From a virus: a DNA stretch of 43,823 nt. Each line of letters begins with the position of its first letter. The stretch's first letter is position 1. The stretch covers positions 1-43,823 of IMG/VR virus record IMGVR_UViG_3300010367_000075. One strand, 5' to 3'. The notes below the pieces were generated by a model that made no database searches, was not told the DNA's origin, and saw nothing but the letters and a program-made list of their open reading frames with translations. Of this stretch, positions 6,086-28,801 are shown piece after piece. A program made the position numbers and the translations under genes.

Positions 6086-7584
6086 GACTCGACCTTGACC
6101 CCGCCTTGCGCCGCATTGAGCGCCGCCACCGTCCACGCAGCCCCGGTCGCGGGATCGGTCGGAAACAGGCTCGTCATCCAGGCGTATGATGTGCCCGGCG
6201 CTAGGCTGGCCGCGCTGCCCGCACTGTCGGTCCCGCCGGATTTGGTGCGCAGCGAGAGCGTCTTAGCCCCGGCATCGCTTTTCGCGACGCTGCCCTTGAC
6301 CGCTGCCGCATAGATGATCGGGGCCGGCGCGGTCAGGGCTGGGAAGCCGTACAAATCCTCGTGCCCCACCGTGGCGTCGTAGACGTAGCTGTATTGGCCC
6401 TGCGGCGGGTTCTGCCCGACTTCGTAGCTGTTCGTCGCTATGCTCGACACGACCCCGAATATCACGGCAGTGATTTGTCCAGCGGTGGTGGCGGGTGCGG
6501 TCCCCGGTGCCCCGCTCGCGAAGGTCGCCGTTGCAAAGCGACCCACCGCAGAACTGTCCTGCGCCGTGTAGCTGTTCACCACCGCGATGTCATTCATGAG
6601 GCCGAACCAGTAGCGCGTTCCTGCGACCAGGGCTTGCGGCGTCGTCAGCGGCAGCGTCTGCAAGACGCCGGACGTCATGCCGACGACCGTCGATCCCGCC
6701 GACATCAGCGTGCCGGGAGTATTGCCGCTGTCGGCGTACAAGATCGGGCGTAACTGGACTGAGGCGTTGGTCAAATTCGGCAGTATTCCGATCGCACTGA
6801 CGGTGCAGTTCGCTGTAGGAGTGATCGGGCGCACATAAAACGTATTCGCGGTGGGGTTGTAAGGCGTTGCACTACGCGATGTTGTACTACCGACAATAGA
6901 CGCGCCGATCGCAAACTGAACCACCCCGTCGCTGGAGGGAAACTGCGTCTCTATGCGTGGCGAGGTCAAGAGAACCGCATTGTTGGTCGCGCCGCTCGTG
7001 TCGAACAGGTACAGATCGTCAATCGTCAGGGAAGGACCGGCCGCCACGGCGCCGATCGTCAGACCGTTCGCGGTGTTGTTCGCAGTTGCCGTCGTGTCGC
7101 CGGTCGTCGGGCCGAGAATGCTGACGCCATCCAGCCAAAGCTGATACGACCCACTGTTGCCAAAGGTGATGTCCCACTCAAGATAGTGTGTTGTGCTGGC
7201 TGTTATCGACGCTGCGGACGTACCCAGGATCGTACCGGCCAGGGTGCCGTTGCGGACAGCGATGGTGCCGTTGGTGTTGATAACGATAGACGCCTGTGCT
7301 GTCCCACTGTCGAGGAACACGATACCCGTCGTAGTAGTGCTCAGGTTTGCCGAGAACCGTACACCGCCGATCAGGCGCGCGTAACTGGCTGCCAATGTTT
7401 TCGTTATAGTCGTGCCTGATCCTACGGTCAGGGCAAACCCGGTACTGCTCAATGGCGCAACTATTTGGTGTGCCGTGCCCGCCGTCGATGTCCACTCACC
7501 GGCCGTCAACAGTGCTACAACATTGGCGTCCACAGAGTTGATGCCACCGTACTTGTCGAAGCCGTCCACCATAAGCAGCGCCAT
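6082..7584 (-). CDS. Tail protein with N-terminal LamG/ConA-like lectin domain
   Basis: 500 residues. The ATG at 7584 ([14 protein letters not shown]) overlaps the previous stop by one base; the frame extends further upstream but only as out-of-phase shadow of the preceding gene. Residues 1-200 have the features of a phage concanavalin A-like/LamG jelly roll: VDGFDKYG start, HYLEWDITFGNSGSYQLWLDG and LTIDDLYLFDTSG. The second half (about 210-500) is Ser/Thr/Ala/Gly-rich beta sequence with ASVQLRPILYADSGNTPG and GTRYWFGLMND. Likely a receptor-binding or carbohydrate-binding tail component; the receptor is unknown. Confidence 0.72.
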   Translation of the reverse strand: MALLMVDGFDKYGGINSVDANVVALLTAGEWTSTAGTAHQIVAPLSSTGFALTVGSGTTITKTLAASYARLIGGVRFSANLSTTTTGIVFLDSGTAQASIVINTNGTIAVRNGTLAGTILGTSAASITASTTHYLEWDITFGNSGSYQLWLDGVSILGPTTGDTTATANNTANGLTIGAVAAGPSLTIDDLYLFDTSGATNNAVLLTSPRIETQFPSSDGVVQFAIGASIVGSTTSRSATPYNPTANTFYVRPITPTANCTVSAIGILPNLTNASVQLRPILYADSGNTPGTLMSAGSTVVGMTSGVLQTLPLTTPQALVAGTRYWFGLMNDIAVVNSYTAQDSSAVGRFATATFASGAPGTAPATTAGQITAVIFGVVSSIATNSYEVGQNPPQGQYSYVYDATVGHEDLYGFPALTAPAPIIYAAAVKGSVAKSDAGAKTLSLRTKSGGTDSAGSAASLAPGTSYAWMTSLFPTDPATGAAWTVAALNAAQGGVKVES

Positions 7585-24535: not shown

Positions 24536-25774
24536 ATGACATCAGGTATCTTCCATAGCTTCCCGCTCGATGATATTATCATCGACCGCCATAACAGACA
24601 GCGTAAATCTATTGACTCTAAACACATAACCGATCTTGCCAGTTCCATATCAGAGAACGGCCTCATTCATCCAATAGTGTTGACACGAGACGGCTTGTTG
24701 GTAGCTGGGGAGTGCCGGACGCTTGCGGCGCGAAGCCTTGGATGGACTCATATAGCTGCACAATATCAAGATGAGGTTGATGAAGAAACGTTAGCTGCTA
24801 TAGAGTTTGAAGAGAATGTTAAGCGGAAGGATATAGAGTGGCAAGATAGAGCTGAAGCCATTCATCGTATGCACGAGATATTCAAGAAGAAAAATCCTGG
24901 TTGGCGTACCGAGGATACTGCGCGTAGGGCAGGGCTGTCTACTACTACAGTCAAAGAACATATCATCGTTTATGAAGAGATGCAAGACGATCCTGAGATA
25001 AGAGCCGCGTCTGTATTCTCGGCGGCTAAGAATAGTGCAGCACGGAAGGTAGAGCGGCGAGTACAAGATGCGATTATACACACGGGTCGAAAAACGACCG
25101 ATACACACCAGTCCCCCATCCTAACCGCCAACTTCCACCTTTGGGCACCCCTCTACACCGGCCCCAAGTTCAACCTGATCCACTGCGACTTCCCCTACGG
25201 TATAGACGCAGACCAACATCAAGGCCAAAACTCCCAGCTTCACGCCGAGTACACCGATACCGCTGACACTTATTGGTTCCTCTTGGATACCCTAACCATC
25301 CACCTCGATAAGTTCTGCGCCGAGTCTGCCCATCTATTCTTTTGGTTCTCTCCGCAGCACTATACCCGAACTTTGGCGGCGCTCGAAAACCTTGATGACT
25401 TCAAGTTCGATCACTATCCACTGGTTTGGCAACGAGGTGAAAATGAGGGTATCGCTCCAGACCCTGCGCGACGACCACGCCGAGTTTATGAGACGGCGTT
25501 CTTTGGCTGGCGAGGTGACCGAAAGATCATCCGAACCAAAGCTAACTCTATCGTTGCCCCAACAAGCCGAGAAATTCATCCCCACGAAAAATCCATCGTC
25601 GCTCTTCAACACTTCTTCGAGATGTGTGTCGATGGGAATACCCGCCTCTTTGACCCAACCTGCGGAAGTGGGTCCGCACTCCGAGCCGCCCGTGCCCTCG
25701 GCGCCAGGGACGTGTTTGGACTCGAGTCCAACCCCGAGTACGCCGATGCCGCCCGCCGTGCCCTCGATCCCTGA
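24536..25774 (+). CDS. ParB/Srx domain fused to a beta-class DNA methyltransferase
   Basis: 412 residues. Residues 1-110 are a ParB-like domain: HNRQRKSIDSKHITDLASSI, then LVAGECRTLAARSLG (G-E-x-R-x-x-A motif). A helical HTH-like linker follows to about 180. The rest is a methyltransferase: CDFPYGIDADQ (Asp218; variant of D-P-P-Y, motif IV) precedes DPTCGSGSALRAARALG (motif I, residue 373 on), the order of beta-class N4/N6 amino-methyltransferases. It could methylate phage DNA against host restriction, targeted by the ParB module. The first 550 bases are AT-rich and the rest GC-rich, suggesting two origins joined at about 25090. Confidence 0.85.
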   Translation: MTSGIFHSFPLDDIIIDRHNRQRKSIDSKHITDLASSISENGLIHPIVLTRDGLLVAGECRTLAARSLGWTHIAAQYQDEVDEETLAAIEFEENVKRKDIEWQDRAEAIHRMHEIFKKKNPGWRTEDTARRAGLSTTTVKEHIIVYEEMQDDPEIRAASVFSAAKNSAARKVERRVQDAIIHTGRKTTDTHQSPILTANFHLWAPLYTGPKFNLIHCDFPYGIDADQHQGQNSQLHAEYTDTADTYWFLLDTLTIHLDKFCAESAHLFFWFSPQHYTRTLAALENLDDFKFDHYPLVWQRGENEGIAPDPARRPRRVYETAFFGWRGDRKIIRTKANSIVAPTSREIHPHEKSIVALQHFFEMCVDGNTRLFDPTCGSGSALRAARALGARDVFGLESNPEYADAARRALDP

Positions 25775-25922
25775 TCGCGTCATCGTGCGCCCCGCTGAGA
25801 ACGGTATAGAGGTCATCACCTACACTAAAGAGGGTGTCGCCACAGTGGCCGTAAGTCCGCGCCGTGCCCTCCAACTCGCCCACGACCTCATTTGCAATGC
25901 TCTCAGGATGTCAACGCCGTGA
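25746..25922 (+). CDS. Small hypothetical protein (58 residues)
   Basis: 58 residues: MPPAVPSIPDRVIVRPAENG, IEVITYTKEGVATVAVSPRR, ALQLAHDLICNALRMSTP. Two or three beta strands and one helix (P-R-x-A-L-x-L-A-x-D-L). No good ribosome-binding site; a GTG at 25758 is an alternative start. It overlaps the methyltransferase by 29 bases and the next gene by four bases. Unknown; coding is supported by the clear strand-helix pattern. Confidence 0.55.
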   Translation: MPPAVPSIPDRVIVRPAENGIEVITYTKEGVATVAVSPRRALQLAHDLICNALRMSTP

Positions 25923-26983
25923 CTCGCATGGTTCTCCTGGGCGAAGCCTACGGTGCCAACGAGTCCGAGGCGAAGGCGCCTTTCGTCGGAGCCACAGGAG
26001 CCCTTCTCTTTAAGCTCCTTACCGAGTCCGGTGTGGTAACGCCGGACCAGGGTCGCGCCTTATCCGGCGCTCTCTGGGCGCGGCAGTATCGCCGCCGCGA
26101 TGCCATCCTGCTGGATGCAGGCATCCGCCTGACCAACGTCTTCAACTTTCAGCCCCCTTCCAATCGGATAGACGCGCTCTGCGGCCCTCGCCACGACGGG
26201 CTTCCACCCATCCGCGCCGGAAAGTACCTCCGTGCCGAGTTCTATCCCGAGCTCGAACGGCTTCGCGAGGAGTTGGCCGCATGGAGGCCGAACATCTTGG
26301 TCGGCCTCGGGGCGACCGCCTTGTGGTTCGCTACTGGCGCGGGTCAGATTACACGCAAGCGCGGCACCATCAGCGACACCCCTTACGGTAAGTTCCTTGC
26401 CACCTTCCACCCTGCCTACCTGTTACGCGGCGCAGCCAACATGCGGCCCATCGTCATCAGCGATCTCATTAAGGCTCATCGCGAGTCTGCTACCGCCACA
26501 GTAAGCCGTCCCGATCGCACCATCTACATCCCTGAGTCTGTCGAGGACATCATCGACGCCTTCCGGCAGATCGAACGGAGTCGATTGCTCGCAATCGACA
26601 TCGAGACGGCTAAGGGCCAAATCACTTGCATCGGCTTCGCGTGGGAGCAAGGCCAAGCCCTCGTCGTGCCAATCTGGGACAACACCAAGGGTGACAACAG
26701 CTATTGGAGTGAAGTCGATGAACCCCTCGTTTGGGAATGGGTCAGAAGAATTTGCGGATTGCCAGTGCCTAAAGTCTTTCAAAACGGCCTCTATGACCTC
26801 CACTATATCTGGCGCGGATACGGTATTACAGTCGCAAATTGCCTTCATGATACAATGCTACTCCATCACGCCCTCCAGCCAGAAGTGCAGAAAAGCCTTG
26901 GATTTCTTGGTTCGCTGTATTCAGACGAGCCCGCCTGGAAACAGATGCGACATCGCACCACGTTGAAGAGGGAAGACGTATGA
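25919..26983 (+). CDS. Uracil-DNA glycosylase domain fused to the first part of a DNA polymerase 3'-5' exonuclease
   Basis: 354 residues from a GTG at 25919. Residues 1-190 resemble family 4/5 uracil-DNA glycosylases: VLLGEAYGANESEAKAPFVG, LTNVFNFQPPSNR and ATFHPAYLLRG. The Fe-S cysteines of typical family 4 enzymes are missing. Residues about 215-354 are DEDD exonuclease: exo I LLAIDIETAKG (Asp227, Glu229) and exo II FQNGLYDLHYIWRG (Asn289, Asp293), then LHHALQPEVQKSLGFLGSLY. The frame ends before exo III, which is in the polymerase gene at 27305. Presumably it removes uracil and proofreads as a subunit of the replicative polymerase. Confidence 0.85.
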   Translation: MTRMVLLGEAYGANESEAKAPFVGATGALLFKLLTESGVVTPDQGRALSGALWARQYRRRDAILLDAGIRLTNVFNFQPPSNRIDALCGPRHDGLPPIRAGKYLRAEFYPELERLREELAAWRPNILVGLGATALWFATGAGQITRKRGTISDTPYGKFLATFHPAYLLRGAANMRPIVISDLIKAHRESATATVSRPDRTIYIPESVEDIIDAFRQIERSRLLAIDIETAKGQITCIGFAWEQGQALVVPIWDNTKGDNSYWSEVDEPLVWEWVRRICGLPVPKVFQNGLYDLHYIWRGYGITVANCLHDTMLLHHALQPEVQKSLGFLGSLYSDEPAWKQMRHRTTLKREDV

Positions 26984-27333
26984 TCCCCTTCCGCCGCGTT
27001 ATCGTCGAGTCTCCTTACCGCGCACTGAACTCCCGAATAGCGCGACGCAACATCACATACGCCATCTCCGCAATGAAGAACTCCATCAACCGTGGCGAGG
27101 CTCCATTTCTATCCCACCTCCTCTACCCCGATGCTTTGGACGATACCGTCCCTTACGAGCGTGAACTTGGCATCACTTTGGGATACGCATGGTGGGCATC
27201 AGCCGAGGCGGTGTGCTTCTACTGCGACTTCGGCTGGTCGATGGGGATGGTCAACGCAAAAATACTGGCGCAATCACGCCATATCCCGATAGAGGAACGC
27301 TACATTGCGCAAGATCGCGACCAGAACTATTGA
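26980..27333 (+). CDS. DUF7768-like protein inserted between the polymerase parts
   Basis: 117 residues: RRVIVESPYRALNSRIARRN, ITYAISAMKNSINRGEAPFL, SHLLYPDALDDTVPYERELG, then CDFGWSMGMVNAKI. The V-x-S-P-Y/F start, G-E-x-P-x-x-S-H-x-x-Y and D-x-G-x-S-x-G-M elements match a small domain I know as DUF7768, related in fold to nucleoside 2-deoxyribosyltransferase-like proteins; activity unknown, perhaps nucleotide-related. ATGA overlap with the exonuclease part and 29-base overlap with the polymerase part make the three genes one coupled unit. Confidence 0.75.
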   Translation: MIPFRRVIVESPYRALNSRIARRNITYAISAMKNSINRGEAPFLSHLLYPDALDDTVPYERELGITLGYAWWASAEAVCFYCDFGWSMGMVNAKILAQSRHIPIEERYIAQDRDQNY

Positions 27334-28801
27334 CCCCGAGCGGTTGTCGCATAATGATGCCCTCTGGGTCTACAACGGCCTTGACTGCTGCATAACCCAC
27401 GAGGTACTTGGGGCATTGCTGCCCCAAGTGACCGAGGTTATCGGGGCAACGTACCGCTTCAGCCGCGATCTGCAAGGTCCGATCCTCGAGATGAACACAC
27501 GCGGCCTCCGCGTAGATCTGTGGCGAAGGGACGAGGTGCTCGCCGACTATCGCACCAAGATGGTGACGCTCGAGCAACAACTGGATGCCTTGGTCCGCGA
27601 CGGTATCAGCTTCTCCGAGTGGCGTGCCACCTCTTCTTGGCGCTCCAACAAGGATATGTGCCAGCTTCTCTACGAGAAGTTGGGCCTCCCGGTGCAGCGG
27701 AAGCGTCGGCCAGATGGTTCCTCCGGCCCAACCGCCGATCGTGACGCCCTCGAGAACCTTGAGTGTTACATGCTGGCCGAGCCAATCATCAAGCACGTTT
27801 TCGCACTCCGCGACCTCGGCAAGAAAGTGTCATTTCTCCAGACAGCAGTGGACCCAGATGGCCGCTTGCGTACCTCGTTCAATATCGCCGGGACCACTAC
27901 CGGACGCCTTGCGTCCTCTTACAGTGACTTTGGAACGGGAACCAATCTACAGAACGTCGAGAACCTCCTTCGCTCCGTCTTCGTAGCTGATCCCGGCATG
28001 AAGTTCTGCAACATTGACCTCGAGCAGGGTGACTCGCGGGGCGTCGGCGCTATCCATTGGAACCTGTTCCGCGACGGGCGCTACCTAGACGCCTGTGAGT
28101 CCGGGGATTTGCACACAGAAGTAGCGCGAGGAGCCTTTCGTCACCTCCCTTGGACCAACAATGCCAGCGATGACCGCGCGATAGCCAACCAGCATTTCTA
28201 CCGATCCTTCACTTATCGTGACGCAGCAAAGCGCCTGGGACATGGGACGAACTATCAGGGCCAAGCCGATAAGATGTCCCGCGCGACACACATTCCTATC
28301 ACTCACATCAAATCCTTCCAACAAAACTACCTTGAGAAGTTCCCGGCCTTCCCACTGTGGTGGCGGTGGGTTCAAGAGGCCCTTCGCGATACCCGCCAGA
28401 TCACCACGATCCTTGGACGCCAAAGGCATTTCTTGGGTGACTGGAAAGATGCAGAAACGATCCGGCAAGCGGTCGCCTACGAACCCCAATCAATTACAGC
28501 GGACACCATCGACCGTGGCCTGCTTGCGATTTGGCGCGGCAATCGCGTCCAGATGCTCTTGCAAGTGCATGACTCGGTGCTCTTCCAATTTCCCGAGCAC
28601 CTCGAACACGAGGTGGTCCCGTGGGCGCTTGCACAGATACAACAAGAGGTAGCCCTGAAGGGCGGGCGGACCTTTGTGATCCCTGGCGACGCCAAATGCG
28701 GTTGGAATTGGTCCGATGACCACTCCGACCCTGACGCGCTTCGTAAGTGGAGCGACCCCGCGCGTCCGCAGCGACGCACCCGCAACCCCTCTTTTCCCTG
28801 A
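27305..28801 (+). CDS. DNA polymerase family A, polymerase part (with exo III motif)
   Basis: 498 residues from a TTG at 27305 with AGAGGA eight bases upstream; no ATG exists before the conserved part. Residues 20-31 (VYNGLDCCITHE, Tyr23 and Asp27) are exo motif III. Then the palm, fingers and thumb: motif A FCNIDLEQGDSRG (Asp238, Glu240); motif B RDAAKRLGHGTNYQG (Arg305, Lys309, His313, Tyr317); motif C QVHDSVLFQFP (His422, Asp423). The position of E. coli Phe762 is His313, and the acidic residue after the motif C aspartate is Ser. It is the replicative polymerase, probably acting with the exonuclease gene at 25919. Confidence 0.92.
   Translation: MRKIATRTIDPERLSHNDALWVYNGLDCCITHEVLGALLPQVTEVIGATYRFSRDLQGPILEMNTRGLRVDLWRRDEVLADYRTKMVTLEQQLDALVRDGISFSEWRATSSWRSNKDMCQLLYEKLGLPVQRKRRPDGSSGPTADRDALENLECYMLAEPIIKHVFALRDLGKKVSFLQTAVDPDGRLRTSFNIAGTTTGRLASSYSDFGTGTNLQNVENLLRSVFVADPGMKFCNIDLEQGDSRGVGAIHWNLFRDGRYLDACESGDLHTEVARGAFRHLPWTNNASDDRAIANQHFYRSFTYRDAAKRLGHGTNYQGQADKMSRATHIPITHIKSFQQNYLEKFPAFPLWWRWVQEALRDTRQITTILGRQRHFLGDWKDAETIRQAVAYEPQSITADTIDRGLLAIWRGNRVQMLLQVHDSVLFQFPEHLEHEVVPWALAQIQQEVALKGGRTFVIPGDAKCGWNWSDDHSDPDALRKWSDPARPQRRTRNPSFP

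Follow-up and report, generated by a model that had tools for sequence, protein, structure and literature searches.

A phage family A DNA polymerase encoded by two genes that divide its exonuclease domain

RESULTS AND DISCUSSION

A polymerase in two genes

In a 43.8-kb virus record from IMG/VR, analyzed here over its whole length (the window), the family A DNA polymerase is encoded by two genes separated by a small third one, and the break falls inside the exonuclease, between motifs Exo II and Exo III. The best explanation, and one that we consider highly probable, is a natural two-chain replicative polymerase in which each chain contributes part of the proofreading site. Exo I, II, and III of family A polymerases belong to one compact fold. 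The evidence supports the view of the preliminary description that functional proofreading would depend on both chains together. The three genes are the following.

25919 to 26983, + strand: P1, 354 amino acids from a GTG start, with a UDG-like domain and Exo I and II; conserved in 93 other loci
26980 to 27333, + strand: the DUF7768 gene occupying the slot between the halves, 117 amino acids (Pfam DUF7768, 2e-22)
27305 to 28801, + strand: P3, 498 amino acids from a TTG start, with Exo III and the family A polymerase domain

Coordinates and Pfam matches bear out the reading frames described beforehand, with the DUF7768 gene between the two halves and overlapping both. P1 matched the Pfam families UDG (3.5e-14) and DNA_pol_A_exo1 (8.3e-5, narrowly missing the cut-off but passing it in a second search), and its profile matches in the PDB were type-4 UDG and UdgX, while P3 was placed in family A by its match to DNA_pol_A (PF00476, 4.9e-31). 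The PHROG profile of the whole polymerase, phrog_17, ends at position 788 in P1 and restarts at 803 in P3, so that almost no sequence is missing at the break. P1 and P3 lie in the same frame in the window, with several stops between them, and their frames vary among relatives. A domain search of the record found a single family A polymerase, a single exo1 domain, and no RNase_T domain.

Two fusions were seen in this region. Directly upstream of the polymerase genes (24536 to 25774), a ParB-N domain is fused to an N6/N4 DNA methyltransferase. The type-4/UdgX-like UDG domain of P1 (25919 to 26490) is fused to the exonuclease part, as it also is in the unsplit relatives described below, and a uracil-sensing polymerase is possible on account of this domain.

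Catalytic residues and selection

All elements of a DEDDy exonuclease (DxE in Exo I, D in Exo II, and YxxxD in Exo III) are present, distributed over the two chains, together with the polymerase motifs.

26597 to 26605, + strand: Exo I, Asp227 and Glu229 of P1; D and E kept in 92 of 92 readable sequences
26783 to 26797, + strand: Exo II, Asn289 to Asp293 of P1; N in 93 of 93 and D in 94 of 94
27371 to 27385, + strand: Exo III, Tyr23 to Asp27 of P3; Y in 91 of 94 and D in 94 of 94, aligned with Exo III of Klenow
28016 to 28018, + strand: polymerase motif A, Asp238 of P3; 94 of 94
28568 to 28573, + strand: polymerase motif C, His422-Asp423 of P3; 90 of 90 readable sequences

The assignment of Exo I and II to P1 and of Exo III to P3, already proposed from the single sequence, held in the alignments. 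Column 23 of the P3 profile falls on position 174 of Klenow (chain length, 605 residues); taking Klenow numbering to start at 324, this position is Tyr497, which identifies Tyr23 and Asp27 as Exo III. Within the 94-sequence set, the exonuclease has a median identity of 51%. In its P1 part, invariance of 99% or more was reached by only 10 of the 159 columns, of which four are catalytic, and among the first 60 columns of P3 by two, one of them D27. Values of dN/dS among close relatives were about 0.09 for the exonuclease, 0.07 for the polymerase, 0.08 for the UDG domain, and 0.14 for DUF7768. In three loci (L027, L030, and L033), Arg replaces the Tyr of Exo III (DVRNGID) and the Asp is kept; their exonuclease may be altered.

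These figures bear on the possibility that P3 alone acts as an exonuclease-deficient polymerase and that P1 was kept only for its UDG domain. The entire polymerase domain does lie on P3, a chain that could be functional without P1, and the UDG domain is under selection; but the Exo I and II residues and the Exo III Asp are invariant at this median identity, dN/dS of the exonuclease is about as low as that of the UDG and polymerase domains, and relatives without any insert retain the exonuclease residues as well, all of which makes this reading very unlikely. More generally, loss of proofreading, which the preliminary description had left as an option, appears unlikely from the sequences, since the residues are kept, dN/dS is low, and the window has no second family A polymerase or exo1 domain nor any RNase_T domain. 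We infer active proofreading by P1 and P3.

Relatives and fixation of the break

Searches of IMG/VR with P3 gave 17 loci, after which 80 of 318 matches were taken in, and further loci were obtained through the divergent members L019 (Caulobacter phage Kuura) and L092 and from GTDB contigs. By profile-HMM count, there were, besides the window, 93 split loci, namely L114 and 92 main-clade members, one of which is Kuura, with a few near-duplicates among them; another 20 loci were unsplit at this point. The break site was identical in all 92 other classifiable loci of the main clade: P1 ends a few residues past a conserved W-K, typically with K(K/R)ED, and P3 starts ca. 20 residues before YNGLD. 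Kuura, where the same arrangement is annotated as “hypothetical protein,” two small genes, and “DNA polymerase,” is a cultured plaque-forming podophage with an assembly verified by BamHI digest (PMC9959647). The recurrence of the same break in 93 loci, with frames differing between loci, excludes chance and the assembly error that had been feared at first; loci from separate metagenomes, from genome bins, and from an isolated, digest-checked phage all break alike, and an assembly or frameshift error is left with a negligible probability.

A continuous UDG-exonuclease-polymerase chain was found in ctMlz233 and its relatives, Mel-JY34, a Desulfofustis phage, and vir526, and the unsplit loci (L020, L100-L112, and L116) all fall outside the split clade. 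In a quick maximum likelihood tree of the polymerase part, in which long branches were flagged, the split and unsplit labels need two changes: 89 split rows form a single clade (SH-aLRT 97), and L114 falls within the unsplit group, next to L111 and L109. Judged from these sequences, the break is the derived state, since neither the outgroups nor ordinary PolA show it. The preliminary description had suggested a search for relatives with an unsplit polymerase or with a break at the same point, and both were found; the continuous frame that it would have held against a split exists only outside the split clade, where it shows the ancestral state and leaves the split standing.

Origin of the break

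The P1 frame of L114 ends with a stop at 7050; an ORF extends from 7052 to about 7480, and P3 resumes shortly before YNCLD. This ORF matches HNH endonuclease PHROGs (best, phrog_3377, 8.3e-28) and falls into one cluster with those in the slots of L003, L029, and L124, which likewise belong to HNH families. The loop broken in L114 is the same as in the main clade (L111, WKDDGKVADAKVPEERRWFYN; L114, WKPDKTTWKVGG-stop ... TEEDLWKYN). From sequence comparison, L114 is an independent break, a separate event from that of the main clade, and it resembles what would be expected as the starting state of the main clade's split. The likeliest origin of the break is insertion of a homing-endonuclease (HNH) gene, since L114, nested among unsplit relatives, has an HNH gene in the same loop; the state is in direct view in L114, and for the main clade, where some slots are likewise occupied by HNH ORFs, we infer it. 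As in genes in pieces of the nrdA/mobE type, the gene is continuous in relatives and lies in two ORFs here, but the break in the window holds DUF7768 and not a homing endonuclease gene.

The slot between the halves

The gap between the two genes is a parking slot for varied small genes. Its occupants in the 93 split loci include DUF7768 (31 loci), DUF1937 (21), KTSC (16), and HNH genes (at least 10 loci, including L114, L003, L029, L038, L045, L054, L063, and L124); MazG, a methyltransferase, RNase H, and an Acb1-like anti-CBASS gene were also seen. In seven loci (L050, L057, L067, L077, L078, L079, and L122), the polymerase is split although nothing is inserted, the start of P3 often overlapping or directly following the stop of P1. 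Since the content varies or is absent while the break stays, no cargo is needed for the split to persist. The slot ORF of L027 (5621 to 6001) matches the anti-CBASS protein Acb1 (Pfam PF23474, 2.5e-11), which indicates that the slot is able to carry counter-defence genes; PADLOC gave no matches for the slot genes tested. KTSC or DUF1937 genes were also located just upstream of or near an unsplit polymerase (L112, 1746 to 1943; L116, 5450 to 5647; L025, 2359 to 2679), and L063, L069, L076, and L086 carry DUF1937 upstream of P1 rather than in the slot. The presence of slot gene types beside unsplit polymerases suggests that the cargo is partly drawn from companion genes of this polymerase.

The DUF7768 protein of the window belongs to a nucleoside deoxyribosyltransferase (NDT)-like superfamily (PHROG deoxyribosyltransferase, 1.1e-11). 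At 27226 to 27258, it reads DFGWSMGMVNA where DUF1937/deoxyribosyltransferase-like slot proteins have SxGvxxE. It thus seems to lack the usual catalytic Glu and, for this reason, may not be a working deoxyribosyltransferase.

Could a DUF7768/NDT-like gene itself have caused the break by recombination and be a functional partner of the polymerase? Genes of the NDT superfamily are the commonest occupants of the slot (the DUF7768 and DUF1937 loci counted above), including those of the deep branches L092 and L118. However, an NDT-like gene is missing from many slots, among them the seven without insert, it is replaced by KTSC, HNH, MazG, and others, and the DUF1937 gene stands outside the slot in the four loci just named and near the unsplit polymerase of L025. 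We regard this alternative as unlikely; the slot content changes while the break remains, and a causal role of DUF7768 is not supported. The preliminary idea of a gene inserted into the polymerase was therefore right in outline, but DUF7768 looks, from its patchy occurrence, like variable cargo, a passenger or neighbor gene that was a later or incidental occupant.

Expression signals

Three signals accompany the gene overlaps in the window.

26966 to 26980, + strand: conserved end of P1, KREDV, whose codons AAG AGG GAA GAC form a purine-rich, Shine-Dalgarno-like stretch for DUF7768
26980 to 26983, + strand: ATGA overlap in the sequence, the DUF7768 start on the P1 stop
27291 to 27296, + strand: AGAGGA in the sequence, probably serving as the ribosome binding site for P3; it lies within DUF7768, 8 bases upstream of the TTG

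A strong Shine-Dalgarno word was present in 44 of 94 P1 ends versus 0 to 20 in control windows, with enrichment of AGG/AGA arginine codons. The conserved K(K/R)ED was considered as a docking tail and rejected, because its codons look like a Shine-Dalgarno sequence for the next gene, and its conservation is no proof of an interface. The TTG start of P3 inside DUF7768, noted in the preliminary description, is real: it aligns with the ATG of most relatives (“MRxIxT” versus “LRKIAT” in the window) and is preceded by AGAGGA at the spacing given above. P1, the slot gene, and P3 are likely made by coupled translation.

Alternatively, the halves might be rejoined during or after expression, through splicing of an intron, a split intein, ribosome bypass, or a programmed frameshift. 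Phage polymerase genes are known to contain group I introns and split inteins (PMC6892783). Here, however, the gap is taken up by the slot ORF, which overlaps the genes on either side, an intein would not fit (13 residues after the conserved WK in P1 and 22 before Exo III in P3), and the frame and distance between P1 and P3 are variable, from abutting to about 1.5 kb. No intein N and C parts flank the break, and no group I or II intron RNA was detected, Rfam giving no match in the window or in L114 even at E values up to 1. All four routes were rejected on these grounds, and we give rejoining only a very slim chance.

Assembly of the two chains

For modeling with AlphaFold2, the exonuclease part of P1 was connected to P3 by a linker of 108 out-of-frame residues, obtained by translating the intervening sequence through its stops. 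The model had a pLDDT of 85 and a pTM of 0.83, with a disordered linker, when the alignment included unsplit relatives; when unsplit and in-frame joined rows were all taken out, leaving separate P1 and P3 rows of split phages, the values were 82 and 0.80. Some P3 heads were misplaced in the alignments. Both models match full-length Klenow (1kfs), with TM scores of 0.74 and 0.73. A Klenow-like fold rebuilt from the halves is consistent with re-assembly, although the tethering of the chains and the training of the network on intact polymerases, a fold it already knew, mean that the predicted docking is not independent proof. The P3 head “MRxIxT” had been considered a clade-specific extension, unsplit ctMlz233-like proteins being shorter there; in both models, it is a strand, and it may instead match a Klenow strand preceding Exo III. 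Correlations of between-gene distances (exonuclease-polymerase, r = 0.89; UDG-polymerase, 0.78; slot-polymerase, about 0.85) mostly reflect common descent and were set aside as a sign of contact.

The two-chain polymerase that we favor would have arisen from an unsplit UDG-exonuclease-polymerase gene when the loop separating Exo II from Exo III was interrupted, at the cost of little sequence or none. Most likely, the break was begun by a free-standing HNH homing-endonuclease gene inserting there; the endonuclease would later have disappeared or given way to other small genes, in the window DUF7768. The break is now fixed across a large phage clade. P1 and then P3 would be translated in sequence through the overlapping stop and start signals, and the two proteins would assemble noncovalently in vivo, completing the proofreading site across two chains. 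A more speculative extension, which we consider rather doubtful, is that fidelity is set by the relative amounts of P1 and P3: P3 alone would be exonuclease deficient, the pair would proofread and read uracil, and the slot would tune the ratio by translational coupling while carrying counter-defence and nucleotide genes.

Comparison with known split genes

In most members of the MEP401/MEP402-type OM43 phages, related to Zobellviridae, the family A polymerase is also divided over two ORFs, which flank a small ORF of unknown nature (PMC10580990). However, the PF01612 exonuclease there lies entirely on the first ORF, together with part of PF00476, so that the break lies in the polymerase domain and the exonuclease is intact, whereas here it lies between Exo II and Exo III. 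Breaks at still other sites, just after Exo III or inside the polymerase domain, were also seen in further phage family A polymerases, namely, L129 (ctLwi270; just after Exo III), L022 (VS-ABTNL-3), and L128 (Youna2). ctMlz233 and its relatives (L020 and L100-L112) have the same domain order and similar neighbors, with a methylase upstream and a primase-like gene downstream, but in a single chain.

The polymerase chains gp43A and gp43B of the T4-like phage 25 copurify with activity (PMC2988022), and phages 25 and 44RR share with our case two chains and, as in L114, a homing endonuclease at the break, although they belong to family B, with another fold and another site. In Aeh1, nrdA is split by the HNH endonuclease mobE and the two polypeptides form an active enzyme (PMC2988022); this is a ribonucleotide reductase with the endonuclease still present, whereas the slot of the window holds DUF7768. 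Since the Aeh1 NrdA chains and phage 25 gp43A/gp43B assemble, they are precedents for assembly of P1 and P3. The split PolB of phage MIJ3 (PMC6892783) likewise has two pieces around an HNH gene, but its break is flanked by intein motifs, for which there is no room here. The split PolIII of jumbo phages and divPolA1/2 were rejected as parallels, being different events.

In the literature searched, which covers part of the field, we found no account of a polymerase broken between Exo II and Exo III. Among split phage polymerases, a break that falls within the exonuclease and is fixed across a clade appears to be new. The present case is set apart by where the break lies, between Exo II and Exo III, by its fixation throughout a large clade in which the exonuclease residues are preserved, by a slot that varies in content or holds nothing, and by the independent occurrence of another break in that loop.

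Implications

The annotation of P1 of Kuura as a “hypothetical protein,” even though it carries half of a proofreader, is a warning for annotation. A phage clade with a cultured member keeps its catalytic residues while two genes divide the exonuclease fold, and it is a natural system for testing whether an exonuclease active site can be shared between chains, whether proofreading can be regulated through subunit ratio, and how selfish HNH genes make subunits from single genes. L114 is an independent instance of the apparent starting step in this loop, and the main clade shows what becomes of such a split over time, down to slots that have lost their insert while the two genes stayed separate.
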